From positions 186,001-250,000 of the forward strand of contig JAFKKG010000013.1 of NCBI GenBank assembly GCA_017305715.1: 64,000 nt of DNA. The letters run 5' to 3'. The notes beneath the pieces were generated by a model. That model saw only the letters and a program-made list of their open reading frames with translations. It searched no databases and was not told the DNA's origin. The stretch is from Hyphomicrobiales bacterium. Lineage in GTDB: Bacteria > Pseudomonadota > Alphaproteobacteria > Rhizobiales > Xanthobacteraceae. The translations under genes and the position numbers were made by a program. Positions 39,343 through 55,281 of the stretch are shown one piece after another; within the stretch, counting starts at the first letter, position 1, and every line of letters starts with the position of its first letter.

Positions 39343-39399
39343 CTAACAAGATTAGCTTTAATCCAGTGATATTATTCGACTTTGGGGCGGGCTTTGCCG

Positions 39400-41274: not shown

Positions 41275-41332
41275 ATGCGGGCCGGTTGGCGGCCTTTCAT
41301 TCGACATACGAATTCATTGTTGGGAGTGACGG

Positions 41333-42547
41333 GTGTTTGACGACGTCGAGATTCCTTACCGCGGCTATTGGTCGACGCCCTTCGCAAAATGGCAGGGCGT
41401 CTTTGCCGGCCTGCACAGCATTCGTTTCGCGGCCGATGTCGCAAAGTCGGAACTGAAGCGGCGACGCATTGCCCCCGAAGCGTTCGACCATGCCGTCCTC
41501 GGCGTAACCATCCCGCAGTGGCGCGGCTTTTGGGGGGTGCCGTGGCTGATGAGCATGGTCGGGAACGACAACGTCACCGGCCCCACCGTTGCGCAGGCCT
41601 GCCAGACCGGTCCACGCTGCCTGATCGCGGCGGCCATGGAATTGAGCGGCGGACAGGCGAACAGCGCGCTGGTCGTAACCTGCGACCGGATGTCGAACGG
41701 AGCCTTCGTGACCTATCCCGGTGATGGCGGATGGGGTGGGTTGCCCAAGACGGAATCCTGGACCGTTGATAATTTTCTCGAAGCGCCCGATCTCGGCCAC
41801 CCCGTGGTTCAGACGGCGGAGAATGTCGCCAGGCGTTGGCAGATCAGCCGCGAGGAGCAGCATGACGTCGTGCTCCGGCGTTACGAGCAGTATCAGGACG
41901 CGCTAGCCGACAATCGCGCTTTCCAGCGGCGGTACATGACGCTGCCGTTCGAGGTGCCGGATCCCAAGTTCATCAAAGTCGCGGGGCTCATCGATGGTGA
42001 CGCCGGGGTGAACGAGACCTCACGCGAGGCGCTCGATCGCCTGATGCCGGCAACGCAACGCGACACGGTGACCTACGCCAGCCAGACCCATCCGGCGGAC
42101 GGCAATGCCGCCGTCATTGTCGCGACCACGGATCGCGCCAGGGAACTGACCGCCGATGCCCGTCTGCGCATCCGCATTCGCGGCTTTGGGCAGGCCCGTG
42201 CCGAGCCGGCACTGATGCCGGCGGCCCCGATACCCGCCGCCCGGATCGCGCTGGAGCGCGCGGGGATCGGGCTTCATCACTTGACCGCCGTGAAATCGCA
42301 CAACCCGTTCATCGTCAACGACATCGTATTCGCGTGCGAGACCGGCTTTCCGGTCGAGCGGATGAATAATTTTGGTTCATCCCTGGTGTTCGGTCATCCG
42401 CAGGGGCCGACCGGAACGCGGCTCATCATCGAATTGATCGAGGAACTGATTATCCGGGGCGGTGGGTTTGGATTGTATCACGGCTGTGCCGCGGGTGACG
42501 CGGGCTTTGCCGTTGTCATCGAGGTCGACGACCGATCCGCGGCCTGA
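41333..42547 (+). CDS. Thiolase-family protein
   Basis: 404 residues, GTG start preceded by GGGAG. N-terminal nucleophile Cys90 in AQACQTGPRC, GHPQGPTGTR (equivalent of GHPxGxSG) and the second Cys in YHGCAAGDAG are retained; the NEAF loop is SHNPFIVND, lacking the glutamate. Thiolases cleave 3-oxoacyl-CoA or condense acyl-CoAs. Located between the ligase and a transglutaminase-like gene, it may remove acetyl-CoA from the ligase product after hydration and oxidation. The loop change leaves room for a different reaction. Confidence 0.83.
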   Translation: MFDDVEIPYRGYWSTPFAKWQGVFAGLHSIRFAADVAKSELKRRRIAPEAFDHAVLGVTIPQWRGFWGVPWLMSMVGNDNVTGPTVAQACQTGPRCLIAAAMELSGGQANSALVVTCDRMSNGAFVTYPGDGGWGGLPKTESWTVDNFLEAPDLGHPVVQTAENVARRWQISREEQHDVVLRRYEQYQDALADNRAFQRRYMTLPFEVPDPKFIKVAGLIDGDAGVNETSREALDRLMPATQRDTVTYASQTHPADGNAAVIVATTDRARELTADARLRIRIRGFGQARAEPALMPAAPIPAARIALERAGIGLHHLTAVKSHNPFIVNDIVFACETGFPVERMNNFGSSLVFGHPQGPTGTRLIIELIEELIIRGGGFGLYHGCAAGDAGFAVVIEVDDRSAA

Positions 42548-42578
42548 CCGCCGCTTTCCCGCCCACGGAGTTAGCAAG

Positions 42579-43292
42579 ATGATTTTCACACCCTATGGCC
42601 TTCCCGAAACAAGCGAGGCCTATCTCACGCCGACCTACTTCCTCGACTCCGATGCTCCGGTCGTCGTGGACTTCGCCAGGCGGGTCGCCGGTGACGAGAA
42701 AGATCCAGCCAAAATCGCCGTGAGGCTTTTCTATGCCGTTCGCGATGAATTTCGCTACGACCCGTTCGCGATCTGGCTTGCGCCGGAAAAATTCCAGGCC
42801 AGCATCGTGGTCAAGCAGGGTTACGGATTCTGCATCACCAAGGCGGTGCTGCTGGCCGCGGCAGCGCGGGTATGCGGCATACCGTCGGCGATCGGCCTCA
42901 GCGATGTGATCAACCATTTCACATCGCCCAAGCTGAAGAAGGCGATGGGGGGCCGCGAGATTTTCCTGCATCACGGTTATGCGGCGCTCTATCTCGGCGG
43001 CAATTGGGTGAAGGCGGCGCCCGCCTTCAACATCGAACTGTGCACCCGCTTCGGCGTGCCTCCCACCGAGTTCGACGGCGTCAACGATGCGATCCTGCAG
43101 AAGTATGACGCCGAGAACAACGTGCGCATGGAGTATTTGCGCGACCACGGTTACTGGTCCGATCTGCCGTTCAACCGGGTGAAGGATGACATGGACGGCT
43201 ACTATCCGGCCGGTTTCAATTACGGCGGCGGCGCCAGCGGCGGCGACGAGCGCTTTGACGGCGAACGCGCCGCTGCGCTGCCCGAAACATAA
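42579..43292 (+). CDS. Transglutaminase-like domain protein
   Basis: 237 residues. The transglutaminase core has Cys85 in GYGFCITKAVLLAAAARVCGIP and the later strand GYAALYLGGNWVKAAPAFN, the place where the His and Asp of the papain-like triad sit; a His-His pair (LHHGYAALYL) precedes the strand. No signal peptide, so cytoplasmic. Members act as cysteine proteases, amidases or transglutaminases. Its position inside an acyl-CoA operon suggests it hydrolyses or transfers an amide or thioester, but this is not shown. Start fixed by ATG at 42579, 31 bp after the thiolase stop. Confidence 0.78.
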   Translation: MIFTPYGLPETSEAYLTPTYFLDSDAPVVVDFARRVAGDEKDPAKIAVRLFYAVRDEFRYDPFAIWLAPEKFQASIVVKQGYGFCITKAVLLAAAARVCGIPSAIGLSDVINHFTSPKLKKAMGGREIFLHHGYAALYLGGNWVKAAPAFNIELCTRFGVPPTEFDGVNDAILQKYDAENNVRMEYLRDHGYWSDLPFNRVKDDMDGYYPAGFNYGGGASGGDERFDGERAAALPET

Positions 43293-43313
43293 TCATTAAC
43301 GGCGATAATGATT
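43291..43313. promoter_or_regulatory. MarR-type operator, copy 2
   Basis: AATCATTA and TAATGATT, perfect 8-bp arms around ACGGCGA; core TCATTA-N7-TAATGA identical to copy 1. It overlaps the stop of the transglutaminase-like gene and lies just upstream of a -35-like TTGACT at 43316. Confidence 0.7.
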
Positions 43314-43315
43314 GC

Positions 43316-43343
43316 TTGACTGCCTTTCGTTCAAAGGTAATCT
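43316..43343 (+). promoter_or_regulatory. Possible promoter of the binding-protein gene
   Basis: TTGACT (43316-43321), 16-bp spacer, TAATCT (43338-43343), immediately downstream of the operator and 24 bp before the start codon. Reasonable sigma-70 type match. Confidence 0.45.
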
Positions 43344-43366
43344 TGAAAGATAATGGAGGGTGGGTC

Positions 43367-44569
43367 ATGCTCAGCAGATTGATGGTGGTTATCGGTATTC
43401 TCCTGTTTTCCGCGGCGCATGCGGCGGACACGACGCCGTTGAAGATCGCGGTGCTCAACGACCAAAGCAGCGTCTATGCCGATTTTCAGGGCATCGGATC
43501 GGTGATCGCGGCGCAGATGGCGGTGGAGGACTATGGTGGCAAGGCCGGCGGCCGGCCGGTCGAGGTACTGTCGGCGGACCATCAAATGAAGGCCGATGTC
43601 GGCGCCAGCATCGCGCGGCGCTGGATCGATCTCGACAACGTGCAGCTGATCCTGGATCTTCCGAATTCCTCGGTGGCACTCGCCGTCAACGAGGTCGTGC
43701 GCGAGAAGAACAAGGTGCTGATCGGCTCGGGCGCCGGCACCTCACTTCTGACCGGTGCCAAATGCACGCCCAATACCATCCACTGGACCTACGACACATG
43801 GGCACTGGCGCATGGCGTCGCCAAATCGGTGGTCGAGCAGGGCGGCAAGAAGTGGTTCTTCATCACCAGCGACTATGCATTCGGACATGATCTCGAAAAG
43901 CAGGCTTCGGATGTCGTCATTGCAAGCGGCGGGCAGGTGCTGGGTGCGGTCCGTCATCCACTCGGCGCGTCGGATTTTGCCTCTTTCATTCTGCAGGCGC
44001 AGGCATCGGGTGCCGACGTCATCGGGCTGGCGACACCGGGCGGCGACCTCTCCAATCTGGTCAAGCAGGCCAACGAGTTCGGATTGTCCAAGACCCATCG
44101 CCTAGTCGGTTTGATCTTTTCGATCAATAACGCCGATTCGATCGGCTTGCCGAGCTCGCAGGGCGTGGTGGCGCTGAATGCTACCTATTGGGACCTCAAC
44201 GACGCCACGCGGGCGTGGTCAAGGCGGTTTCAGCAGCGCCATCCACGCAAAAACATGCCGAATGATCAGCAGATGGGCGTCTACTCCGCCGTGCTGCATT
44301 ATCTCAAGGCGATCGACAAGCTTTCCGGTGAAGCCGGAGACGGCGCCAAGGTGGTGGCTACGATGAAGGCGATGCCGACCGACGATCCGCTGTTCGGCAA
44401 GGGGCTGATCCGCGCCGACGGCCGCAAGATCCATCCCAACTACGTGCTCAGGACCAAGGCCGCCTCGGCCTCGAAGGAGCGCTGGGATTATTTTGACGTG
44501 ATCGCAACGGTGCCGGCCGAGCAATCATTCCGCCCCATCAAAGACGGCAACTGCCCGCTGGTGAACTAG
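43367..44569 (+). CDS. HAAT-type ABC substrate-binding protein without adjacent permeases (1)
   Basis: 400-residue periplasmic receptor (Peripla_BP_6), Sec signal MLSRLMVVIGILLFSAAHAA with cleavage after AHA, GGAGGG ribosome site 8 bp upstream. Mature chain begins DTTPLKIAVLNDQSSVYADF. No permease or ATPase is adjacent, so it must use a HAAT core encoded elsewhere, for example the one entering this window at base 1 or the one at 18.2-21.5 kb. Operator copy 2 upstream ties it to the CoA-ligase regulon, making an aryl acid a likely ligand. Confidence 0.88.
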   Translation: MLSRLMVVIGILLFSAAHAADTTPLKIAVLNDQSSVYADFQGIGSVIAAQMAVEDYGGKAGGRPVEVLSADHQMKADVGASIARRWIDLDNVQLILDLPNSSVALAVNEVVREKNKVLIGSGAGTSLLTGAKCTPNTIHWTYDTWALAHGVAKSVVEQGGKKWFFITSDYAFGHDLEKQASDVVIASGGQVLGAVRHPLGASDFASFILQAQASGADVIGLATPGGDLSNLVKQANEFGLSKTHRLVGLIFSINNADSIGLPSSQGVVALNATYWDLNDATRAWSRRFQQRHPRKNMPNDQQMGVYSAVLHYLKAIDKLSGEAGDGAKVVATMKAMPTDDPLFGKGLIRADGRKIHPNYVLRTKAASASKERWDYFDVIATVPAEQSFRPIKDGNCPLVN

Positions 44570-44602
44570 GTCGCGATGAGAATAGTTTCGAACGAAGGGC
44601 CG

Positions 44603-45145
44603 TCAGACGATCCCATAGATGTGCATGAGATCGTCCAGTCCGGCGACGAATTGGGAAAGATCGCCGCGGATCGCCTGCTTGATACGACGCTCCTGCTGCT
44701 CGACCCGTGTCGTGACCTTCTTGATCAACTTTTTACCCTCGGGGGTCAGGTGCAGCGTACGCAAACGCCGGTCGATCGGACTCAACTGCCGGAGCAGGTA
44801 GTTGGCCTTCTCGAGGCGGTCGAGCGACAGCACCAGCGCGGGAGGTTCGGCCCCGACCAGCCGGGTGATCTCGTTCTGGAAGATTCCGGGATTGGCCTCA
44901 ATGATGGAGAGCACGGCAAAATCCATGATCCTCAGGTCGAAAGCGCTCAGGATGCCGTTCAGCTCGCTGATGATAGCATGTTTGACCCGCCTGATCTTGT
45001 AACCGACGAAGCGATCCATCGGATTGACGAGATGTGGCGCTCCGGAGGGGAGGTCCGGGGTGACGGGACCTTTGCGCGCGGCAGGGACATCCGCGAACGT
45101 CTCGTTGGGCGGCCTGACGGCCCGCCCGCTTTGCCTCGCCGCCAC
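44603..45145 (-). CDS. MarR-family transcriptional regulator
   Basis: 180 residues from a GTG start with AGGGAG 9 bp upstream. An upstream frame to 45211 would include the operator and is rejected. Winged helix: IMDFAVLSIIEANPGIFQNE, then LVLSLDRLEKANYLLRQLSPIDRRLRTLHLTPEGKKL, the wing with the conserved DRR. A 45-residue N-terminal extension rich in Pro/Arg precedes the core. Divergent from the enoyl-CoA hydratase; operator copies at 39324, 43291 and its own promoter suggest it represses ligase, binding protein and itself, probably relieved by an aryl-CoA or aryl acid as in FerC/CouR-type MarR proteins. Confidence 0.85.
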   Translation of the reverse strand: MAARQSGRAVRPPNETFADVPAARKGPVTPDLPSGAPHLVNPMDRFVGYKIRRVKHAIISELNGILSAFDLRIMDFAVLSIIEANPGIFQNEITRLVGAEPPALVLSLDRLEKANYLLRQLSPIDRRLRTLHLTPEGKKLIKKVTTRVEQQERRIKQAIRGDLSQFVAGLDDLMHIYGIV

Positions 45146-45162
45146 CGTGCGCGCTCCCTGAA

Positions 45163-45181
45163 TCGTTATCGTAAATAATGG
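45163..45181. promoter_or_regulatory. MarR-type operator, copy 3
   Basis: TCGTTA-N7-TAATGG, matching 10 of 12 arm positions of copies 1 and 2. Lies between the divergent MarR and enoyl-CoA hydratase genes, 17 bp before the MarR GTG and 47 bp before the hydratase ATG. Confidence 0.6.
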
Positions 45182-45228
45182 ATACCAGCCATGGCTCTTA
45201 GCATCGAGCAAGTCAGGAAGAAAGCCGG

Positions 45229-46020
45229 ATGATTTCGTCGGATGTCGAGATTGCGATCGATGGCAAGATTGCGATTCTCTCCTTGAATCGCCCGCAAAAG
45301 CGTAATGCCATTCGTGACCAGACCATAGAAGCGCTCGGACATTTCTTCGCCCATTTGCCGCAGGTCGGCGCTGTATTGCTCCGCGCCAATGGTGAAGATT
45401 TCTCGGCCGGCCTCGACCTTGGCGAACACCGCGATCGTGACGCGGCGCAGGTGATGCATCACTCCCAGATGTGGCATCGCGTGCTCAACGCCGTGCAGTT
45501 CGGCGGTGTTCCCGTGGTGTCGGTGTTGAAGGGCGCGGTTATCGGCGGTGGGCTCGAAATCGCCACCTCGACCCATGTGCGCATCGCCGAACGGAGCGCC
45601 TATTACGCGTTGCCGGAAGCGGTTCGCGGAATTTACGTCGGCGGCGGGGCGTCAGTACGCGTGGCTCGGCTCATCGGCAAGGACCGCATGATCGAAATGA
45701 TGCTGACCGGACGCCGGCACGATGCGGCGACAGGCCACGGCTACGGCATTTCGCACTATCTCGTCGAGAACGGCGAGGGCGAACCAATGGGACTCGATCT
45801 CGCGCGACGCGTCGCAGACAATGCGCCGCTGTCCAATTACGCGATCCTGAACGCGATCCCGCGCATTTCGGACATGTCGGCGAATGACGGCTTCTTCGTC
45901 GAGTCGCTGATGGCGGCGGTGGTGCAGACCGGCGAGGCCGCGCAGCGCGGCCTGACCGATTTCCTCGAAAAGCGCGCACCATCCTTGAAACCGGCCGCCG
46001 AACAGATGAACGCGAAATAG
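45229..46020 (+). CDS. Enoyl-CoA hydratase/isomerase family protein
   Basis: 263-residue crotonase-fold protein. Oxyanion-hole segments around GEDFSAGLDLGEHRD (near residue 60) and KGAVIGGGLEIATSTHVRIAE (near 100), with the acidic position in LPEAVRGIYVGGGASVRVARLIG. Hydrates or cleaves an enoyl-CoA, in this setting probably the aryl-acryloyl-CoA made by the ligase. ATG preceded by AGGAAGAA. No gene follows for 178 bp. Confidence 0.88.
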   Translation: MISSDVEIAIDGKIAILSLNRPQKRNAIRDQTIEALGHFFAHLPQVGAVLLRANGEDFSAGLDLGEHRDRDAAQVMHHSQMWHRVLNAVQFGGVPVVSVLKGAVIGGGLEIATSTHVRIAERSAYYALPEAVRGIYVGGGASVRVARLIGKDRMIEMMLTGRRHDAATGHGYGISHYLVENGEGEPMGLDLARRVADNAPLSNYAILNAIPRISDMSANDGFFVESLMAAVVQTGEAAQRGLTDFLEKRAPSLKPAAEQMNAK

Positions 46021-46134
46021 GCGCGATAGCCCTGCCTGCATGTTCATTCCGGTCGTCCGGCGGCGGCGTGCCGCGGCGGGATGACCGACATGTTGCGCGC
46101 CCGCGCTACTGGGCTCCGAGATCGACTCTAAAAA

Positions 46135-46153
46135 TAGCATTGTAGCAAAGCTA
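46135..46153. promoter_or_regulatory. Second operator type (TAGC-N11-GCTA), copy 1
   Basis: TAGCATTG and CAAAGCTA, complementary at 7 of 8 positions around TAG, 46 bp upstream of the Rieske oxygenase start. The same 19-bp TAGC-N11-GCTA frame recurs at 49471. Confidence 0.5.
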
Positions 46154-46198
46154 ATTTATGGTAGTATTCCATATCGGTCGACGGGATGGGGTTGGCGC

Positions 46199-47248
46199 AT
46201 GTTTCTTTATAATGCCTGGTACGTTGCGGCCTGGAGCAGCGAGATCACGTCGAAGCCGATGGGCCGCACCCTGCTCAACGAGCCGGTGGTGTTTTATCGC
46301 GCCGCCGACGGAACGGTGATGGCGCTGGAAGACCGCTGCTGCCATCGCGGCATGCCGTTGTCGTGCGGCGAAGTCTTTGGGCAGAACATTCGCTGCGAGT
46401 ATCACGGCATGGTGTTCGACAGCGCCGGCAAATGCGTCGAGATACCCGGCCAGGCGATGATCCCGGCCAGCGCGCGGGTGCGCGCCTATCCGGTCGAGGT
46501 GCGCGACGATCTGGTGTGGATCTGGATGGGCGATCCGGCGCTGGCAAGTCCCGAGACGATCGTCCGTTATCCCTGGCACTCGGCGTGGCCCTACAAGAGC
46601 AAGACCGAGCGGATCGACTGCAACTATCTATTGCTGTCGGACAATCTCCTCGATCAGACCCACGGTGCCTATGTTCACAAATCGACGCTGGCCAGCAATG
46701 TCGACGCCTATGAGCGCGCCGAAATGAAGGTGAGCGCAACGCCGGATGGCGTCAAATTCATCCGCTGGATGCTCAACTGCGTTCCGCCGGGCATTTATGC
46801 CAAGGCGGTGAAATTCCGCGGCCGTGTCGACCGCTGGGGCGAGTTCGAATATGTGGCCCCGTCGTGCATCCTGCAGTTCACCGGCGCGCGCGATGTCGGC
46901 GAGGGCGCCTACGAGAACGATGCCCGTGACGGCGGCTTTGGCCTGCGCATCTTCTACGGCATCACGCCGGAGACCGAGCATACCAGCTGGTTCATGTGGT
47001 CGACCGCCAACAGCTATCGCCAGAACGATCCGGCCGCCACCGAAGAACTGTTCGCCGAAATCGAGCGCGCCTTCAAGGAAGACGAGGACGTACTGGTCGC
47101 GCAATACGCGATGCTGCGCAGGGTAGGTGACCGGCCCTTGATCAATATCGCATCCGATGGGGCTCGCATGCAGGCCCGTCTCGTGCTCGAACGCAAGATC
47201 GCGGAGGAGCGCGGTATTCCTCGCGATCAGGTTGTCACATTGGTCTAG
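46199..47248 (+). CDS. Rieske non-heme iron oxygenase (VanA/O-demethylase-like), large subunit
   Basis: 349 residues. Rieske 2Fe-2S ligands in CCHRGMPLSCGEVFGQNIRC-EYHG (CxH-x15-18-CxxH), beginning near residue 45; mononuclear iron ligands in NLLDQTHGAYVH. Length and motif spacing fit vanillate O-demethylase-type oxygenases. No reductase (VanB-like) gene is nearby, so electron supply must come from elsewhere. Would release formaldehyde from a methoxy-aryl acid, complementing the ligase module; a ring-hydroxylation or N-demethylation role is also possible. Confidence 0.87.
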   Translation: MFLYNAWYVAAWSSEITSKPMGRTLLNEPVVFYRAADGTVMALEDRCCHRGMPLSCGEVFGQNIRCEYHGMVFDSAGKCVEIPGQAMIPASARVRAYPVEVRDDLVWIWMGDPALASPETIVRYPWHSAWPYKSKTERIDCNYLLLSDNLLDQTHGAYVHKSTLASNVDAYERAEMKVSATPDGVKFIRWMLNCVPPGIYAKAVKFRGRVDRWGEFEYVAPSCILQFTGARDVGEGAYENDARDGGFGLRIFYGITPETEHTSWFMWSTANSYRQNDPAATEELFAEIERAFKEDEDVLVAQYAMLRRVGDRPLINIASDGARMQARLVLERKIAEERGIPRDQVVTLV

Positions 47249-47292
47249 GCGGTTTGTTCGCCATCTCGTCAATCCCAGTCCGGAGCACGCCT

Positions 47293-48501
47293 ATGGTTGG
47301 ACGTATGGAAGGCCTTATTCTTTCGCTGGCATTGCTGGCAGGAACCGTTACGGCGAGCGCCGGGGGAAAGTATGGACCCGGCGCGACCGACACCGAAATC
47401 CTGATCGGGCAGACCAATCCCTACAGCGGGCCGTTGTCGTCTTATGGGACCCAGGGCCGCGCGCAGACGGCGTACTACGCCATGATCAACGAGCAGGGCG
47501 GCGTGAACGGTCGCAAGATCAGATTGATAAGCCTCGACGACAGTTACTCGCCGCCGAAAACGGTCGAGCATCACCGCCGATTGGTCGAGAGCGACGAGGT
47601 GCTCGGCGTGGTCGGCACGATGGGAACGCCGACCAACTCGGCGATCGTCAAATACATGAACGCGAAATCCGTGCCGCATATCTTCCTGGCCAGCGGCGCA
47701 TCGAAATGGGGCGATTTCAAAAGTTCGCCATGGACGATGGGTTGGTATCCGACCTATCGCTCGGAAGGCAATATCTACGGCGCCTATATCCGGGATAATA
47801 TGAAGGATGCGAAGATCGCGATCCTCTCCCAGAACGATGACTACGGAAAGGACTTCGTCGCGGGCTTCAAGGCCGGCCTTGGTGAGGCTGCCGACAAGCT
47901 CATCGTCAAGGAGCTGACATATGAAGTATCGGAGCCGACGATCGATTCGCAGATCGTGACGCTGAAGGCGTCCGGCGCCAACGTGTTGTTCAGCGCGTCG
48001 ACGGCAAAGGCTGCGGCGCAGACCATCAAGAAGGCCGGGGAGCTCGACTGGCACCCGACGCATTTCCTGGTGCAGAACGCCAACTCGATCTCGACGGTGC
48101 TGGCCCCCGCCGGCCTCAATCACGCGGTCGGATTGATCTCGACCGCCTATATCAAGGACCCCGTCGATCCCCAATTCGCTGATGATGAAGGCATGAAGTG
48201 GTATCTGGCTTTCATGAAGAAGTACTATCCGGACGGTGACGTGAAGGATCCTCAGAATCAGATCGGCGTGTCGATCGCCGCTACCTTCGTACAGGTCCTG
48301 AAACAGTGCGGTAACGATCTGACGCGGGAGAACGTGATGAAGCAGGCCAACAGCATTCGGGATCTGGAACTCCCGCTGCTGCTGCCCGGAATCAAGCTGA
48401 ATACGGGGGTCGAGGACCATTATCCGATCGAGCAGTTTCAGCTCGTCAAGTTCGACGGCAAGACGTGGGCCCGGTTCGGCGATGTCCTGAAGAGCAATTG
48501 A
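47293..48501 (+). CDS. HAAT-type ABC substrate-binding protein without adjacent permeases (2)
   Basis: 402-residue periplasmic receptor, signal MVGRMEGLILSLALLAGTVT cleaved near ASAGG. Mature chain starts KYGPGATDTEILIGQTNPYS, typical for Peripla_BP_6 proteins that bind aromatic or amino acids. No permease or ATPase adjacent. Downstream of the Rieske gene by 44 bp, likely cotranscribed under the second operator type. Start ATG at 47293; 47305 is an alternative. Confidence 0.87.
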   Translation: MVGRMEGLILSLALLAGTVTASAGGKYGPGATDTEILIGQTNPYSGPLSSYGTQGRAQTAYYAMINEQGGVNGRKIRLISLDDSYSPPKTVEHHRRLVESDEVLGVVGTMGTPTNSAIVKYMNAKSVPHIFLASGASKWGDFKSSPWTMGWYPTYRSEGNIYGAYIRDNMKDAKIAILSQNDDYGKDFVAGFKAGLGEAADKLIVKELTYEVSEPTIDSQIVTLKASGANVLFSASTAKAAAQTIKKAGELDWHPTHFLVQNANSISTVLAPAGLNHAVGLISTAYIKDPVDPQFADDEGMKWYLAFMKKYYPDGDVKDPQNQIGVSIAATFVQVLKQCGNDLTRENVMKQANSIRDLELPLLLPGIKLNTGVEDHYPIEQFQLVKFDGKTWARFGDVLKSN

Positions 48502-48670: not shown

Positions 48671-49366
48671 ATGGTGATGCCGATGATGAAGAATGTAAAA
48701 TCGGCTCGCAAGGCCCTGGTGTCCAAGGCCGCCAGGAAAGGCAAAGCCGTCGTTTCCAAGGGCGGTGCTCCGATCAAGGCTTCCCGTGCCTCGGCGCCGT
48801 TGACGGTGTCGCGTCCCGAACTGCTGGTGCAGGGCTCGGACCGCGCGTTCCGCAGCCTCGTGCACGGGCTGTTCGGGTTCTTCGCCAGGCACGAGGCCAT
48901 TCGTTCCGGCCACGGTGCCCGCATCGGCCTGGTTGGAATCGAGTATACGGTGCTGATCTCGATCGGGCATCTCACCGTCCATGAAGGTGACGTCAGCGTC
49001 AACCGGATCGCGGAGCATCTTTATCTCAGCGGCGCATTCGTCACGACGGTGACGAATAAACTGCTGCAGCGGGGTCTGATTCACAAGACGCCCGATCCGA
49101 ACGATCGCCGGCGGGTGCGTCTTGAAATCTCCGAAAAGGGATGGGCGAGGCTTGCAGAACTGGCGCCGGTTCAGCGTCAGGTCAATGACGTTCAATTCGA
49201 TTGCCTGAGCGCGAGCGAGTTCAAGCAGCTGTCGGATATGATGGAGCGGCTGATCGACAGCAGCAATCGCGCCTTGCGGTTGCAGGCCTACTTTGCGGAT
49301 GGGGCAGGCGACGCCGCCCCGGATGGGACCGGCTCGCAATCCCAGCCCAAGCTCGACTTGCAATAG
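48671..49366 (+). CDS. MarR-family transcriptional regulator with Lys-rich N-terminal extension
   Basis: 231 residues. The first 45 are basic and low-complexity (KSARKALVSKAARKGKAVVS...). Winged helix from about residue 80: VGIEYTVLISIGHL, SVNRIAEHLYLSGAFVTTVT, and the wing PDPNDRRRVRLEISEKG. A 25-residue polar tail ends the protein. Next to copies of the TAGC-N11-GCTA motif (46135, 49471, degenerate form at 48533), so it probably controls the Rieske/receptor pair and the AA_synth-monooxygenase operon. Confidence 0.85.
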   Translation: MVMPMMKNVKSARKALVSKAARKGKAVVSKGGAPIKASRASAPLTVSRPELLVQGSDRAFRSLVHGLFGFFARHEAIRSGHGARIGLVGIEYTVLISIGHLTVHEGDVSVNRIAEHLYLSGAFVTTVTNKLLQRGLIHKTPDPNDRRRVRLEISEKGWARLAELAPVQRQVNDVQFDCLSASEFKQLSDMMERLIDSSNRALRLQAYFADGAGDAAPDGTGSQSQPKLDLQ

Positions 49367-49470
49367 CCAGCCCTTCGGCGCGAGCCGCTTCCATCCCGAA
49401 TGTCGATTCCAGCGCTTGCCAGGCGGGCGCATGAAGGCTTGCGCTCTATCTCTCGAAATACATCTTGCGA

Positions 49471-49489
49471 TAGCTTTTAAAGTTAGCTA
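49471..49489. promoter_or_regulatory. Second operator type (TAGC-N11-GCTA), copy 2
   Basis: TAGCTTTTAAAGTTAGCTA; read outward, ATAGCT and AGCTAT are perfect arms around TTTAAAGTT. Twenty-nine bp before the AA_synth start codon, in an AT-rich promoter. A degenerate copy starts at 48533 upstream of the MarR gene. Confidence 0.6.
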
Positions 49490-49518
49490 TTAGAGAGTGA
49501 CAATTCGGGGAGGGCAAA

Positions 49519-50091
49519 ATGCGCATTCGAAAGATCATTACGCTGGTCGATGAGGCCCGCCACGAAGCAGGCTTTGCGGCCGAGCCGCCGTTGCGCAAGG
49601 TCGCAACCGCTGCCGTGATAGGCAACCCTTTCGCAGGCCGCTATCAGGCCGATCTGTCTTCGTTGGTCACGGCCAGCGAGGCCCTTGGGCGCGAGATGTC
49701 CTGCATCGCGGTCGAGGCCATGGGAGACTATCCCATCCAGAGCTACGGCAAGGCTGCAATCATCGGTCTCGCCGGTGAGCAGGAGCACGGCGTCGCGTTG
49801 TTGACCACCGTGTTCGGCAACGTGATCCGGGACGCCGTCGGTGGCGGCATCGCCTGGATCTCGTCCTTCACCAAACGTGCGGCGGCGGGCTCGATGATCG
49901 ATATTCCGCTCGCGCACAAGGACGCCCTCTATGTCCGGTCGCACTATGACGGCGTCTCGGTCATGCTGCCGGACGCGCCGCTGCCCGATGAGATCGCGAT
50001 CATCTGCGCCTATGCGAACCGCGGCCGGCTGAATCATCGCGTTGGTGGTCTTGCCGCCGCCGACATCAAGGGCGTCAACGGCCTCATCTAG
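49519..50091 (+). CDS. AA_synth (DUF1185, PF06684) family protein
   Basis: 190 residues. Contains the family landmarks RKVATAAVIGNPFAGRYQAD near 26, EAMGDYPIQSYGKAAIIGLAGEQEHG near 70 and GRLNHRVGGLAAADIKGVNGL at the C-terminus. The fold of this family is known from structural genomics as a chorismate-mutase-like variant with proposed roles in amino-acid or ring metabolism, but no reaction is proven. It is first in an operon with a flavin monooxygenase, an enamidase-like hydrolase and a flavin reductase. A tautomerase-like or hydrolase step on a ring-opened product is conceivable. Confidence 0.85.
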   Translation: MRIRKIITLVDEARHEAGFAAEPPLRKVATAAVIGNPFAGRYQADLSSLVTASEALGREMSCIAVEAMGDYPIQSYGKAAIIGLAGEQEHGVALLTTVFGNVIRDAVGGGIAWISSFTKRAAAGSMIDIPLAHKDALYVRSHYDGVSVMLPDAPLPDEIAIICAYANRGRLNHRVGGLAAADIKGVNGLI

Positions 50092-50120
50092 CTCGATCCC
50101 GGTCAGAACGGAGAATACAA

Positions 50121-51599
50121 ATGGCAATTTGCAAGACCGGCGCTGAGCATCTGGCTTCGCTGAAGGATGGGCGTACCGTCTATATCGACGGCGCGTTGGT
50201 CTCGGATGTGACCGAGCATCCCGCGTTTCGCAAATCCGTGGCCTCAGCCGCGAGCCTCTACGATTTTCAGACCGCGCCTGAAAATCTGGAGCTCATGACC
50301 TTTGCGCCGGAGCATGCCAACCGCCGGATTAATCGAGCCTGGCAGATTCCGCGCTCCTACGCCGAAATGACCCGCCGGCGGAAGGCGCTTACGGCCTGGG
50401 CGGAATGCAGCTACGGTTTCATGGGGCGTTCCCCGGACCATCTGGCTTCCGCGCTCGTCGGCCAAAGAATCGGCCTCGACGTCTTCAAGCGGGGAGGCGA
50501 AGCGCGCGCGAAGGCGTTTGCGGACTATTTCGACTACGCCAGCTCGAGTGACTTGTTCTTGACCTATGTCATCATCAATCCCCAGGCAAACCGCTCAAAG
50601 GATTGGGGTGACCAGGAAGAGGATCTGGTGGCCCGGATCGTCGATGAAGACGCAACCGGCGTGACGATCCGCGGCGCGAAGATGATGGGAACCAGCTCCA
50701 TCATGGCGAATGAAATCTTTGTCGCCAATCTGCAGCCGCTCAAGGCGGGCGAGGAAGCGCTCGCGTTCTGCTGCGCGCTGGAGATGAACACCAAGGGCCT
50801 GCGCGTGTTGTCGCGCAAGTCCTATGAAGCCGGCGCCGTGTCGGTGTATGATAACCCGATCTCCTCCCGATACGACGAAAACGACGCGGTGATCTATTTC
50901 GACGACGTCAAGGTTCCCTGGGACCGGCTGTTCGTCCATCGCGACGTCGATCTCTGCCGCGCCCAATTCCACGATACGCCCGGCCATGTGTTCCAGAACT
51001 ACCAGTCGCAAATACGCCTCGTGGTCAAACTCAAGTTCCTGGTCGGCATCGCTCACAAGCTCACGGAGACGATCGGCACCTCGGGGATGCCGCAGGTCCG
51101 TGAACAGCTGGGACGGCTGGCCGCCAATGTCGGAATGGTCGAGGCCATGCTGCACGGCATGGAAGCGAGCGGTGAGCAGGTCGGCGACTACTGGATTCCC
51201 AACCGCCACCATCTCTACTCGTCACAGGTCATCACCCAGGAGCTCTATCCGCGCATGATCAACGTGATCCGCGAACTCGCCGGCGGCGCTTTCATCATGC
51301 TGCCGTCGTCGTTCCGCGATTGGGATAATCCCGTCATCGAGCCGCTGATCCGCAAGACCCAGCGATCGTCTGCGCTCGATCCCGAACAGAAAGTGAAATT
51401 TCTGAAGGCGGCGTGGGATGCAATCGGCTCCGAATTCGGCTCGCGGCATACCCAGTACGAGATGTTCTACGCCGGTGCGCAATTCGTGACCGCGGGTCAC
51501 AGCTTTCGAACCTACGGCTGGGACTCGTCGAACAATCTCGTTGACAGGCTGCTGTCGAGCTTCGCGCTGAACGACGAGCGGTCTGCCGTCAAACATTGA
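50121..51599 (+). CDS. HpaB-family FADH2-dependent monooxygenase (4-hydroxyphenylacetate 3-hydroxylase family)
   Basis: 492 residues, normal length. N-terminal HpaB_N domain (about 5-270), with WAECSYGFMGRSPDHL near 93 and TSSIMANEIFV near 190, and C-terminal HpaB domain (about 275-470) with the FAD contact region LSSFALNDERS near the end. Uses reduced flavin supplied by a separate reductase to hydroxylate a phenol or heteroaromatic, or to cleave N-heterocycles oxidatively. The HpaC-like gene 1.3 kb downstream is the obvious partner. Usual HpaB works on 4-hydroxyphenylacetate, but the operon holds no homoprotocatechuate genes. Confidence 0.9.
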   Translation: MAICKTGAEHLASLKDGRTVYIDGALVSDVTEHPAFRKSVASAASLYDFQTAPENLELMTFAPEHANRRINRAWQIPRSYAEMTRRRKALTAWAECSYGFMGRSPDHLASALVGQRIGLDVFKRGGEARAKAFADYFDYASSSDLFLTYVIINPQANRSKDWGDQEEDLVARIVDEDATGVTIRGAKMMGTSSIMANEIFVANLQPLKAGEEALAFCCALEMNTKGLRVLSRKSYEAGAVSVYDNPISSRYDENDAVIYFDDVKVPWDRLFVHRDVDLCRAQFHDTPGHVFQNYQSQIRLVVKLKFLVGIAHKLTETIGTSGMPQVREQLGRLAANVGMVEAMLHGMEASGEQVGDYWIPNRHHLYSSQVITQELYPRMINVIRELAGGAFIMLPSSFRDWDNPVIEPLIRKTQRSSALDPEQKVKFLKAAWDAIGSEFGSRHTQYEMFYAGAQFVTAGHSFRTYGWDSSNNLVDRLLSSFALNDERSAVKH

Positions 51600-51629
51600 G
51601 AACGTCAAACACCGGACATCGGGGACGCC

Positions 51630-52832
51630 ATGCGGGTAGCGATCGTTAATATCGGCTTGATCCTGACCGGCGACTGGCGCGATCCGTTCGCGGGCGGCGA
51701 TACCGTCATTTGCGAAGACGGCATCATCATTTCGGTCGGCACCGCGCCCGTGTCGGCGATCGAGAGCGCTGATATCGTGATCGATGCCGATGGCACAACG
51801 CTGATCCCCGGCCTGATCGACTCTCACGTCCATATCACCTTCGGTGACTATACCCCGCGCCAGCAGACGGTCGGCTATCTCGAAAGCTACATCCATGGCG
51901 GCACCACCACCGCGATTTCAGCGTCGGAGGTCCACGTTCCCGGCCGGCCGCGCGATCCCGATGGCGTCAAGGCGCTCGCGATTGCTGCGCGGAAATGCTT
52001 CGAGAACTACCGTCCCGGCGGAATGACGGTGCACGCCGGCTCCGTGATTCTGGAGCCGGGGCTCACCGAAAGCGACTTTGCGGATCTGCGACGGCAAGGC
52101 GTGTGGCTTGCCAAGGCCGGCTTCGGCGCGGTGTCGAGCGCGTTCGACTATGTCCCGTTGGTGAGCGCGGCCCGCGCCAGCGGCATGATCACCACGGTGC
52201 ATACTGGCGGATCCTCGATCCCGGGATCCGGTGCGGTGACCGCCGAACATCTGCTCGCCATGAACCCGCACGTGTCGTTCCACGTGAATGGTGGGCCGAC
52301 CGCCATGCGCGACGCCGATTTCGAACGTCTGGTTTGCGAAAGTGACATCGCGCTTCAAATTTGCACCGCGGGAAACCTGCGGACCGCGCTGCTGACCGCT
52401 GCGCTGGCGACCAGGCACAATGCCTTCGACCGGCTGATCGTTGCGACTGATACGCCGACCGGAAGCGGCATCATGCCGCTCGGCATGCTCTACACGGTGT
52501 CGCATCTGGCGAGCCTCGGACATGTTCCCCCCGAGCATGCGATTGCTGCGGCGACGGGCAGCAACGCCCGCATTTATGGGCTGAACTCCGGCTACATCAG
52601 GCCTGGCCGCATCGCCGACCTGGTACTTATCGATGCGCCTGACGGCGGGTCACAGCAAAATGGCCTCGACGCGATCCGGAACGGCGATATCGCGGCCATC
52701 GGCGCCGTTATCGCGCGCGGCGAACCGCAGTTCGTCGGCCGCAGCCGCAACAGCCCCGCGACGACGCGAACGGTTCAGGTGGCCAACTGCCGCGTTCCGC
52801 GTTTTGCAGTAGCCGCCCAACGTCCAAGGTAA
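51630..52832 (+). CDS. Amidohydrolase-superfamily hydrolase resembling enamidase
   Basis: 400 residues, cytoplasmic. Zinc motif DSHVHITFGD (His66, His68, Asp73), then PGRPRDPDGVKALAI, His135 in TVHAGSVILEPGLTE, His191 in VHTGGSSIPGSG, His218 in FHVNGGPTAM and Asp274 in ATDTPTGSG. Compared from memory with Eubacterium barkeri enamidase, each block is present in the same order (THVHVSGGDYAPRQ, GRPKDAAGTKALAI, VHGGAVILEKGLTE, HTGGTSIPGSS, HINGGPTAI, NDAPSGTG, SRNTPP). Enamidase opens 1,4,5,6-tetrahydro-6-oxonicotinate to 2-formylglutarate. Here, in an aerobic monooxygenase operon, it likely opens a lactam enamide or imide. Confidence 0.85.
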   Translation: MRVAIVNIGLILTGDWRDPFAGGDTVICEDGIIISVGTAPVSAIESADIVIDADGTTLIPGLIDSHVHITFGDYTPRQQTVGYLESYIHGGTTTAISASEVHVPGRPRDPDGVKALAIAARKCFENYRPGGMTVHAGSVILEPGLTESDFADLRRQGVWLAKAGFGAVSSAFDYVPLVSAARASGMITTVHTGGSSIPGSGAVTAEHLLAMNPHVSFHVNGGPTAMRDADFERLVCESDIALQICTAGNLRTALLTAALATRHNAFDRLIVATDTPTGSGIMPLGMLYTVSHLASLGHVPPEHAIAAATGSNARIYGLNSGYIRPGRIADLVLIDAPDGGSQQNGLDAIRNGDIAAIGAVIARGEPQFVGRSRNSPATTRTVQVANCRVPRFAVAAQRPR

Positions 52833-52867
52833 AGCCCTTACATGGCGTGACGTGATAGGAGGCATCC

Positions 52868-53467
52868 ATGAGCAGCAAGAACGTGGACATGCCGCTGGTA
52901 TGCGAGCCGCGCTCGTTTTCCGACCGCGAGTTCCGTGACGCACTGGGTCTGTTTGCGACCGGTGTCGTCGTGATTACGAGCGCGGGAAAGGCGGGGAGCG
53001 GTAACGGCGATCGCAGCGGATATCTCGGTGCGACCGTAAGCTCGTTTAGCTCGGTTTCGCTGGATCCACCGCTAATCCTGTTCAGCATCGGACGCCAATC
53101 AAAGGCGTTTACCGCCTGGCAGTCGGTTGAAAGTTTTGCAGTCAATATCCTGAGCGAAAATCAGAGTGCTATATCGACGCGCTTTGCCCGCGCCATGACC
53201 GACAAATGGGATGGCGTGAATACCCGCTCGGGACTGGGAGGAGTTCCGTTGTTGTCCGATGCGCTGGCTTGGATCGAATGCCGGGCATACGCTAAATACG
53301 ACGGCGGAGATCATCTTATCATTGTCGGTCAGGTATTGTCCTTATCGGCAAAGCCGGGAGCAAGTGCACGTCCGCTGATTTTCTTCGGCGGCAAATATCG
53401 CGAGCTCGATGTTCATCCGAGCATTTTGACGCCGCCCGATGCCGATCAGTGGCTGCACGGGTGGTAG
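52868..53467 (+). CDS. Flavin reductase-domain protein (HpaC-like)
   Basis: 199 residues. Flavin_Reduct fold: FRDALGLFATGVVVITSAGK, GATVSSFSSVSLDPPLILFS and AVNILSENQSAISTRFA, ending near the FFGGKYRELD strand. Reduces FMN or FAD with NAD(P)H for the HpaB-family oxygenase upstream. Start ATG 35 bp after the hydrolase gene with GGAGG just upstream (taggaggcatccatg). Confidence 0.9.
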   Translation: MSSKNVDMPLVCEPRSFSDREFRDALGLFATGVVVITSAGKAGSGNGDRSGYLGATVSSFSSVSLDPPLILFSIGRQSKAFTAWQSVESFAVNILSENQSAISTRFARAMTDKWDGVNTRSGLGGVPLLSDALAWIECRAYAKYDGGDHLIIVGQVLSLSAKPGASARPLIFFGGKYRELDVHPSILTPPDADQWLHGW

Positions 53468-53576
53468 CAGGACGTCAGTTTCAAAAGGCCGACCAATTGT
53501 GAGACCGCGCGCCCCAGACAGGTGGATGCGGCGGGCAATCGAGGGTTGCCCGCGCGCCGATGGCAAGCGCAATACA

Positions 53577-53622
53577 ACTTGTTATAAATGTTGTAATTTG
53601 TATAGCGAAAACTATAACAAGT
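53577..53622. promoter_or_regulatory. Long inverted repeat in promoter of the SDR gene, likely GntR/FCD operator
   Basis: ACTTGTTATA (53577-53586) and TATAACAAGT (53613-53622), perfect 10-bp arms with a 26-base AT-rich spacer that contains further TTGTAA and TTGTATA half-sites. TTGT-AT-type repeats are common for FCD-type GntR regulators; one is encoded 1 kb downstream. Confidence 0.55.
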
Positions 53623-53686
53623 AGAAGCCCGGAAGTTCGTTGCGACGGACAATAGGGAGCTGGTCGAAATAAGCTGGAGCCCGCGG

Positions 53687-54466
53687 ATGCTTGAAGGAAC
53701 GGTCGCTTTTGTCACCGGTGGCGGGTCCGGGATCGGTCGCGGCATCGCACTTTGTCTCGCTGCCCATGGCGCTGCGGTGGTCGTTTCGGACCTCGATGCC
53801 GAGATGAGCCGTGCCGCCGCCGACGAAGTGAAGGCGAGCGGCGGACGTGGTTTCGCTGTCGTGGGCGACGTCGGGCAATGGGAGCAGGCTGACGACGTCC
53901 TGGCGCAGGGCGTCCGGCTTGCCGGCGGTCCGGTGGATATTCTGGTGAATTGCGCAGGTCTCTACTTCTCGGTGCCGTTCCATCAGCTCTCGCGAGAGGC
54001 GCATGAGCGGCTCTATGCCGTGAACGTCTCCGGGGTCTTCGCCATGTGCCAGGCGGCAGTTCCGGCGATGAAAGCGCGCCGGTGCGGCAAGATCGTCAAT
54101 ATTGCCTCGGTCAGCGGCAAGGATCCGTTCGCGTCCAGTGCCAGTTATGGCTCGTCGAAATCGGCGGTGATCGGCATGACCAAGTCGCTTGCCAAGGAAC
54201 TTGGGCCGTACAACATCAACGTCAACGCGGTCTGTCCAGGCCTGGTCTATACGAAGATGCAGGATGATCAGTGCCGCCGGATTGCCGCCGAGACCGGGCG
54301 GCAGCCGGAGGATGTCTGGCGTCAGCGCCTCGCGGCCGTTCCGCTCGGGCGTGGCCAGGAGCCATCGGACATCGGAGAAGCGGTGGCCTTCCTGGCTAGC
54401 GAGCGCGCCCGCAACGTCACCGGCCAAGCGCTGAACGTCTGTGGCGGCCAGCAGATGATGGACTAG
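53687..54466 (+). CDS. Short-chain dehydrogenase/reductase (SDR)
   Basis: 259 residues. NAD(P) loop TGGGSGIGRG near 11, NCAG near 89, NIASVSGKDP with catalytic Ser, Tyr-x3-Lys in ASYGSSKSAV, closing GQALNVCGGQQMMD. Asp in VVSDLDAE after the second strand suggests NAD(H) preference. Between the flavin reductase and the GntR gene, with an inverted repeat in its promoter. Would oxidise an alcohol of the ring-opened product. Confidence 0.88.
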   Translation: MLEGTVAFVTGGGSGIGRGIALCLAAHGAAVVVSDLDAEMSRAAADEVKASGGRGFAVVGDVGQWEQADDVLAQGVRLAGGPVDILVNCAGLYFSVPFHQLSREAHERLYAVNVSGVFAMCQAAVPAMKARRCGKIVNIASVSGKDPFASSASYGSSKSAVIGMTKSLAKELGPYNINVNAVCPGLVYTKMQDDQCRRIAAETGRQPEDVWRQRLAAVPLGRGQEPSDIGEAVAFLASERARNVTGQALNVCGGQQMMD

Positions 54467-54555: not shown

Positions 54556-55281
54556 ATGAGTCCGCGGCGCGTCAGAATGAGCGACGTTCTTTACGGCGAC
54601 ATTCTCAAGCAGATCAATTCCGGAGGATTCGCGGTCGATCACCGACTGCCGTCCGAAAAGGAGTTTTGCGAGCGCTTCGGCGTTTCCCGCCCGATTGTAC
54701 GCGAGGCGCTTGAGCGGCTGCGCGCCGAGGGGCTGATACGTTCGCGCCAGGGCGCCGGTAGTTTCGTCGCCAACGGCGCGGCCCAAGCGACGGCAGAGCC
54801 GCCATCGCACGGGTCACCTGACACGATGCCGGTACATATCAACAGTATCGCCGCGATCCAGAAGTTCTATGCTTACCGTATCTCGTTGGAAGGAGAGCTC
54901 GCATACGCCGCCGCACAGAACCGCCAGCCCGCGGACATCAATCGCATCGGCGGCCTGTTGCAGGATATCAAGTCGAGCGCTGCCAGCAATACCCAGGGCA
55001 TTGATGAGGACCTCGAATATCATGCGGCTATCGCGCAGGCGACGCACAACGAATTTTTTATCGCGGCCTGGAACGCCGCGCGCGGGCATATCCGCTTCCT
55101 GATCGAACTCGCCCGCAGCCTTTCGACGCTGGGTTTGCCGAATCATTCGGCAGCCGTGCGATCGAGCCATGAGCCAATCTTCGAATGTATCCGCGACGGC
55201 GACGCCGACGGCGCGCGCGCCCGCATGCGGGAGCACATCACCCGGTCGCAAGAGCGGGTGTTCCTCGGGAAATGGACCTGA
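54556..55281 (+). CDS. GntR-family regulator with FCD domain
   Basis: 241 residues. Winged helix 8-75 (VLYGDILKQINSGGFAVDHR LPSEKEFCERFGVSRPIVREALERLRAEGLI...), FCD ligand domain about 100-235 with ISLEGELAYAAAQ and a helical metal-site region. Follows the SDR by 89 bp and ends convergent to the next ABC permease (54 bp). Likely controls the SDR and perhaps the flanking ABC cassette. Effector: a carboxylate, as is common for FCD proteins. Confidence 0.9.
   Translation: MSPRRVRMSDVLYGDILKQINSGGFAVDHRLPSEKEFCERFGVSRPIVREALERLRAEGLIRSRQGAGSFVANGAAQATAEPPSHGSPDTMPVHINSIAAIQKFYAYRISLEGELAYAAAQNRQPADINRIGGLLQDIKSSAASNTQGIDEDLEYHAAIAQATHNEFFIAAWNAARGHIRFLIELARSLSTLGLPNHSAAVRSSHEPIFECIRDGDADGARARMREHITRSQERVFLGKWT

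Follow-up and report, generated by a model that had tools for sequence, protein, structure and literature searches.

The stretch of DNA analysed here (the window; 64,000 nucleotides (nt), positions 186,001 to 250,000 of contig JAFKKG010000013.1 from a Hyphomicrobiales bacterium with a genome of 7.45 Mb in 51 contigs) carries five genes on the + strand, coding for an AA_synth protein, an HpaB-type flavin monooxygenase, an enamidase-like amidohydrolase, an HpaC-type flavin reductase and a short-chain dehydrogenase/reductase (SDR); all five lie where an earlier note on this DNA had placed them and show the domain matches that it had claimed (Table 1). The first four form a tight operon with gaps of 29, 30 and 35 nt between successive genes, measured on gene lists from a rough home-made gene finder, which also underlie the extended AA_synth loci discussed below. 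The SDR gene had been counted in the same operon, but belongs to it less clearly because of a gap of 219 nt, and we rejected it as a core part, SDR matches being present at only three of 32 loci with a hydrolase of the same type (K loci, defined below), the window being one of them. Together, this recurrent gene set of a soil bacterium probably opens a nitrogen-containing ring with the help of oxygen and of an unusual enamidase relative.

Among solved structures, the hydrolase comes closest to the enamidase of Eubacterium barkeri (2VUN), a block-by-block resemblance in the earlier note that extends over the full length (E 2e-100 over residues 3-383, 42.4% identity over 380 aligned residues; runner-up E 9e-7). 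The metal-site positions in the window are H66, H68, K162, H191, H218 and D274, five of six as in enamidase, with Lys162 standing in the place of Glu164. Across 115 loci, residue 162 is Lys in 34 and Glu in 81, and the groups were named by this residue, K for the Lys rows and E for the Glu rows, the latter holding 2VUN. In a search of 41 genomes (that of the window and related ones), K-type relatives (63-65%) occurred in two besides its own, and an E-type relative (43-44%) in 24 of the 25 genomes that represented the genus, its own included; when named contigs were scanned with an alignment of seven rows, the best 80 of at least 282 relatives were retained, and plasmid records gave 25 further ones, 11 of which were opened. 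After duplicates and near-copies had been dropped, one branch of the tree separates 32 K rows from 68 E rows (Shimodaira-Hasegawa-like approximate likelihood ratio test (SH-aLRT) 90; quick search without an outgroup); 2VUN falls within the E group and the window hydrolase outside it, while the second enamidase-type protein of the same genome clusters with Bradyrhizobium rows. Midpoint rooting lands on the long L032 row. This row comes from a haloarchaeal plasmid (L032, 8986-10128) and represents a distant Lys-type member (39%) whose placement in the tree is unsure.

Lys162 occurs in 32/32 K rows and Glu in 68/68 E rows, 2VUN among them, whereas H68, H191, H218 and D274 are invariant across all rows of both groups, and H66 is present in all except two K rows. 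Residue 243 follows the same division, being Gln in 31/31 K rows once L032 is set aside, and Glu in 68/68 E rows, where 2VUN Glu245 corresponds to Gln243 of the window. The HxH, Lys, His, His, Asp signature, which marks amidohydrolases with a carboxylated Lys, is present in the window hydrolase, and Glu164 of 2VUN bridges the metals of that enzyme. Of the 81 Glu loci, 79 have a Gly directly before the Glu at residue 162. Isoaspartyl dipeptidases bridge their metals through Glu in type I and through a carbamylated Lys in type II, the Glu of type I coming after a Gly with a cis-peptide bond (PMC7774594). Because this Glu/Lys split is a precedent and Gly precedes the Glu here as well, Lys162 is probably carboxylated and would replace the enamidase Glu as bridging ligand of a two-metal site. 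If this is right, the enamidase family would comprise a second class of metal site, that of the K group.

Table 1 Genes and features of the locus, in positions of the window
Feature	Position	Strand	Basis
AA_synth (PF06684/DUF1185), 190 amino acids (aa)	49519-50091	+	PF06684 E 2e-64; 216.5 bits vs Pfam gathering cut-off 27
Oxygenase component of an HpaB-type (group D) flavin monooxygenase, 492 aa	50121-51599	+	HpaB_N E 3e-81, HpaB E 7e-57
Enamidase-like amidohydrolase, K group, 400 aa	51630-52832	+	Amidohydro_1 E 2e-17; 2VUN E 2e-100
Lys162 codon (place of enamidase Glu164)	52113-52115	+	Position computed from start of open reading frame
HpaC-type flavin reductase, 199 aa	52868-53467	+	Flavin_Reduct E 2e-39
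SDR oxidoreductase, membership doubtful	53687-54466	+	adh_short E 4e-57; 219 nt gap
MarR-type regulator, probable local regulator	48671-49366	+	PF01047 E 1e-10
GntR/FCD regulator, membership doubtful	54556-55281	+	FCD E 2e-21, GntR E 2e-17

Neighbouring genes were counted by tblastn up to 10 kb on each side, with references taken partly from the same loci; some loci end at contig ends, so that absences are upper bounds, and related loci are not independent, which makes the p values a rough guide only. The 32 K loci, the window counted, carry AA_synth (24), HpaB (12), genes of the succinate semialdehyde dehydrogenase (SSADH) type (9), DUF4286/EthD-like (9) and crotonase-like genes (8), thiamine pyrophosphate (TPP) enzymes (7), flavin adenine dinucleotide (FAD) monooxygenases (5), CoxL (5), HpaC (4, window included) and UbiD (3), and four of them (L038, L045, L046, L050) gave no match to any neighbour reference. 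At the 64 E loci we found AA_synth (45), 6-hydroxynicotinate reductase (6HNR; 42), UPF0280 (40), CoxL (22) and HpaB (3). 6HNR was thus present at 0/32 K loci vs 42/64 E loci (p 5e-11), and HpaB at 12/32 vs 3/64 (p 8e-5). In 19/32 K loci AA_synth lies at most 400 nt from the hydrolase; in the window HpaB lies between them. The HpaB-bearing K loci belong to Alphaproteobacteria, Acidimicrobiia and Bacillota, with Bradyrhizobium and related Hyphomicrobiales, Rubritepida, Alteribacillus and four metagenome-assembled genomes of Acidimicrobiia, some of them so titled, as hosts. Since AA_synth accompanies 24 and HpaB 12 of the K loci, and the HpaB-bearing loci span three groups, the AA_synth/HpaB/hydrolase set is not a chance grouping, and the earlier note's view that the HpaB/HpaC pair and AA_synth belong with the hydrolase is supported. 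The oxygenase varies between HpaB, FAD monooxygenase and CoxL while AA_synth stays, as expected if hydrolysis is the core and the oxygenase follows the substrate.

E-type enzymes occur in a different company. The genome of the window itself contains an E-type enamidase with 6HNR, UPF0280, CoxL and AA_synth (L036; contig C1, 500692-501837 and 507953-508480), a probable nicotinate cluster. To meet an enamidase in an aerobe had been taken for an oddity, a view that no longer holds given the E-type relatives in 24/25 genomes of the genus and the 42 E loci near 6HNR, which stem mostly from Proteobacteria that are aerobes. An Azorhizobium route via tetrahydro-oxonicotinate has been published, in a source that calls the pathway anaerobic, and enamidase performs hydrolysis and deamination on its six-membered substrate (PMC9304392).

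We read the AA_synth-HpaB-hydrolase-HpaC set as a catabolic cassette for an N-heteroaromatic acid, with HpaBC acting before the K hydrolase, and give this reading an even chance of being right. HpaC would provide reduced flavin and HpaB would hydroxylate the ring beside the nitrogen; the hydroxy product would tautomerise to a cyclic enamide (lactam), to which the K-type hydrolase would add water, opening the lactam C-N bond on its two-metal site; the released enamine would lose ammonia and become an aldehyde or a keto acid, and AA_synth would probably accelerate a step around the hydrolysis (tautomerisation or ammonia loss from the enamine). A route over an N-heterocycle and a lactam, already suggested by the earlier note, is the most economical reading, and we place this lactam-enamide route about midway between likely and unlikely. 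The window contains the domains of a two-component flavin monooxygenase (PF11794 and PF03241 with the partner PF01613), and HpaB scores below the cut-offs of the curated models for 4-hydroxyphenylacetate hydroxylase (296 bits vs a cut-off of 480 for TIGR02309, 278 bits vs 885 for TIGR02310), so that by these models it is not such an enzyme.

As substrate, pyrrole-2-carboxylate or a close relative is the leading though tentative candidate and would yield 2-oxoglutarate and ammonia; 2-oxoglutarate is reportedly the product in Arthrobacter, a finding attributed to Hormann and Andreesen in 1991. We favour this acid because a two-component flavin monooxygenase of group D, known from Rhodococcus, acts on it (PMC6165268), because its microbial metabolism is known but called poorly understood (PMC12899673), because its hydroxylated lactam would be a five-membered analogue of the enamidase substrate, and because 2-oxoglutarate would need no further pathway enzymes. 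Spelled out in full, HpaBC would form 5-hydroxypyrrole-2-carboxylate, the lactam tautomer of which would be opened to 2-oxoglutarate and ammonia by an enamide hydrolase of a new, carboxylated-lysine class, with AA_synth as a dedicated enamine/imine deaminase or tautomerase, a version that we advance with considerable reserve; if it is true, a RidA-like function of AA_synth would account for the company that the family keeps, in three different kinds of clusters, with hydrolases of the ring and enamide types. At K locus L024, the FAD monooxygenase has PnpA as its nearest solved chain, followed by HspB (succinoylpyridine hydroxylase), and the aldehyde dehydrogenase lies above the SSADH model cut-off (674 vs 646 bits); a 75% relative of the latter sits between the oxygenase and AA_synth at L041. 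Both aldehyde dehydrogenases would fit a C4 semialdehyde from a five-membered ring.

Of the proteins with solved structures, 2QTP (E 6e-43) and 3BYQ (E 1e-28) are related to the AA_synth protein, and an alignment of 50 members contains, among others, the invariant residues K78, E87, H90, R104, S116, R140, E158 and R174. The family, found in 41/299 genomes and without a match in PHROGs, accompanies both the K and the E group. Among 29 classed AA_synth loci (from the best-scoring 30 returned, hence not random, with L001 of the window's genome left out), 18 are of the nicotinate type, ten stand beside an alpha/beta hydrolase and one beside neither. Those alpha/beta hydrolases that were tested resemble enol-lactonases and esterases, and no named amidase; from the trigonelline (tgn) route we infer that they may be enamide hydrolases. 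In two of the four loci read further (L159 and L160), the genes that follow code for a flavin reductase, a protein that by eye resembles luciferase and an aldehyde dehydrogenase-like protein. The relative BB2672 has a chorismate-mutase-like fold, a hexameric assembly and a conserved His cluster (PMC2954203). Structures of PF06684 were described in 2010, and the literature consulted gives no settled reaction for the family. Fold and gene company let us guess at an enamine or tautomer step for AA_synth.

Several points weigh against the proposed cassette and its substrate. Eight of the 32 K loci, some of them shortened by contig ends, have no visible AA_synth, and two K rows (L047, which has unresolved letters, and L050) carry Gln at the metal His66. 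Seen from HpaB, the coupling to the hydrolase is loose, and the subfamily also occurs without it: an HpaB-seeded search of 398 genomes of the phylum gave six strong places in five genomes, two in the cassette (one being the window), three in HpaC-HpaB sets without AA_synth or hydrolase and one without any of these, absences referring to the stretch read around each place. Most of the nine SSADH matches are just 31-41% identical and may be general aldehyde dehydrogenases, and the distribution of SSADH (1/12 HpaB-bearing K loci vs 8/20 others, p 0.10) is not a significant sign of 2-oxoglutarate as the product. UbiD enrichment at K loci is not significant (p 0.11), and the UbiD fragment at L058 is nearest to 6H6X (E 3e-36), which we take to be the furan-dicarboxylate enzyme HmfF. 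To PA0254, by a reference entry the pyrrole-2-carboxylate decarboxylase (PMC12899673), it matches far less well (E 1e-16). An effect of the AA_synth protein HcdD was looked for and none was seen by the authors of a study in which its route acts on a lactone (PMC7913881), and the choice of substrate is itself one that we infer.

Further features of individual loci deserve mention. At the Alteribacillus K locus (L058, 11-3525), genes for UbiD, a UbiX-like protein and a TPP enzyme come first, next to the HpaC-HpaB-hydrolase-AA_synth set. A Mesorhizobium plasmid has, close to its K-type locus, two genes (L026, 3755-4693) that carry the annotation of a type II 3-dehydroquinate dehydratase, and L050 adjoins genes that by eye resemble those of uric acid breakdown. 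HpaC-HpaB sets without AA_synth and hydrolase were seen at L154, L155, L156 and L039 (15417-18620), the last of which also carries a K cassette; a 126-aa protein with a shared start sequence occurs near the sets in L154, L156 and L039, and DUF2848-like and amidase genes near some of the four. In the window, the MarR gene lies 152 nt upstream of AA_synth and the GntR gene 89 nt downstream of the SDR gene. MarR relatives (34-63%) lie near the cassette at L039, L048 and L153, and two of the three HpaC-HpaB sets without the cassette adjoin a MarR gene as well. No inverted repeats were found in the two window stretches searched for them, including 49360-49525, and promoter-like (2 vs 1.8 in shuffles) and terminator-like sites (1 vs 5.3) were counted against shuffled sequence. 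Upstream, window positions 39382-48501 hold genes for a coenzyme A (CoA) ligase, a thiolase-like and a transglutaminase-like protein, two branched-chain-type binding proteins, a crotonase and a Rieske oxygenase resembling VanA, as well as a MarR gene on the opposite strand, possibly a separate aromatic-acid cluster. The Rieske gene was rejected as a core part of the cassette, with a match at only 1/32 K loci.

Among other explanations, the ring might be opened by oxygen first, the flavin enzyme converting a pyridine or pyridinium to an N-formyl enamide, which the K hydrolase would then deacylate while AA_synth would act like TgnF. TgnF and HcdD are AA_synth proteins named in trigonelline-type or similar routes (PMC7913881), 10/29 AA_synth loci adjoin an alpha/beta hydrolase, L159 and L160 continue with the proteins described above, and SSADH-type matches occur at 9/32 K loci. 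However, those clusters have an alpha/beta hydrolase and a luciferase-like oxygenase instead of HpaB and an amidohydrolase, and the one solved relative that spans the whole K enzyme acts by opening a ring rather than on an open chain (PMC9304392), so that we consider this order of events unlikely.

We regard it as quite improbable that the substrate lacks nitrogen, with HpaBC hydroxylating a phenolic or other aromatic acid, the hydrolase opening a lactone and the upstream CoA-ligase, thiolase, crotonase and Rieske genes joining the pathway. These genes do lie on the same strand, HcdD is induced in a coumarin (lactone) route (PMC7913881), and crotonase-like genes occur at 8/32 K vs 4/64 E loci (p 0.018); yet the VanA-type Rieske match is confined to the window among the K loci and HpaB falls under the 4-hydroxyphenylacetate cut-offs. 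Poorer still are the prospects of a KpiC-like extradiol dioxygenase that would use O2 to cleave a dihydroxy heterocycle formed by HpaBC. KpiC, which shares 28% identity with enamidase, does open 3,4-dihydroxypyridine with O2 after a flavin monooxygenase (PMC7356986), but the window enzyme is nearer to enamidase (42.4%) and retains HxH, His, His and Asp. That the hydrolase is a genuine tetrahydro-oxonicotinate enamidase serving aerobic nicotinate breakdown, an idea for which the best solved relative speaks, was rejected as highly improbable by grouping, residue 162 (different in all K vs E rows, as is residue 243 with L032 left out) and 0/32 K loci with 6HNR, the more so as an E-type enzyme already occurs in the same genome, in the company of 6HNR, UPF0280 and AA_synth.

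With the hydrolase outside the 2VUN group in a tree without outgroup, Lys in place of Glu, no 6HNR at K loci and E-type enzymes widespread, tetrahydro-oxonicotinate, on which the earlier note had wanted the hydrolase assayed, is likely the wrong substrate, and the phylogeny did not sustain the place in the enamidase branch that the note had implied. The hydrolase group is new within the known enamidase family, and its assignment to a pathway is a hypothesis. In the open-licence literature of PubMed Central, covered by titles, abstract openings and passages, with most subscription papers outside this scope, the gene set is described nowhere, and nothing turned up on a pyrrole-2-carboxylate route with a monooxygenase and an amidohydrolase; among the matches listed there, no title concerned AA_synth for TgnF or homarine genes for homarine operons. 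If the proposed cassette is right, genes can be assigned to a heterocycle breakdown route that has been called poorly understood (PMC12899673), and PF06684 gains a concrete, testable role. Annotators would also be warned against assigning an enamidase-like gene to nicotinate breakdown when it lies next to a flavin monooxygenase gene, since such an assignment is probably wrong.

Compared with known systems, the window hydrolase agrees with the Eubacterium barkeri enamidase over its full length and at five of six metal-site positions, and differs in Lys162, in Gln243, in its place on the opposite side of the K/E branch and in having no 6HNR neighbour. The E-type clusters (6HNR, UPF0280, AA_synth) have the hydrolase family and the AA_synth partner in common with the cassette, but carry 6HNR (and CoxL at 22/64) where the cassette has a flavin monooxygenase. 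Isoaspartyl dipeptidases of types I and II display the same split between Glu and carbamylated Lys where the metals are bridged, although as peptidases they act on another substrate, unlike the K hydrolase. Common ground with the tgn clusters is the combination of AA_synth, hydrolase, flavin oxygenase system and aldehyde dehydrogenase, whereas the look-alike loci seen here have an alpha/beta hydrolase and a luciferase-like oxygenase. KpiA of the kpi cluster is single-component. This cluster for 4-hydroxypyridine also lets a flavin monooxygenase precede a ring opener of the amidohydrolase fold, but its KpiC is a dioxygenase, unlike the window enzyme (PMC7356986). The pyrrole-2-carboxylate monooxygenase of Rhodococcus, finally, belongs to the same class of two-component flavin hydroxylases and acts on an N-heteroaromatic acid, a likeness drawn from the description of its class (PMC6165268).

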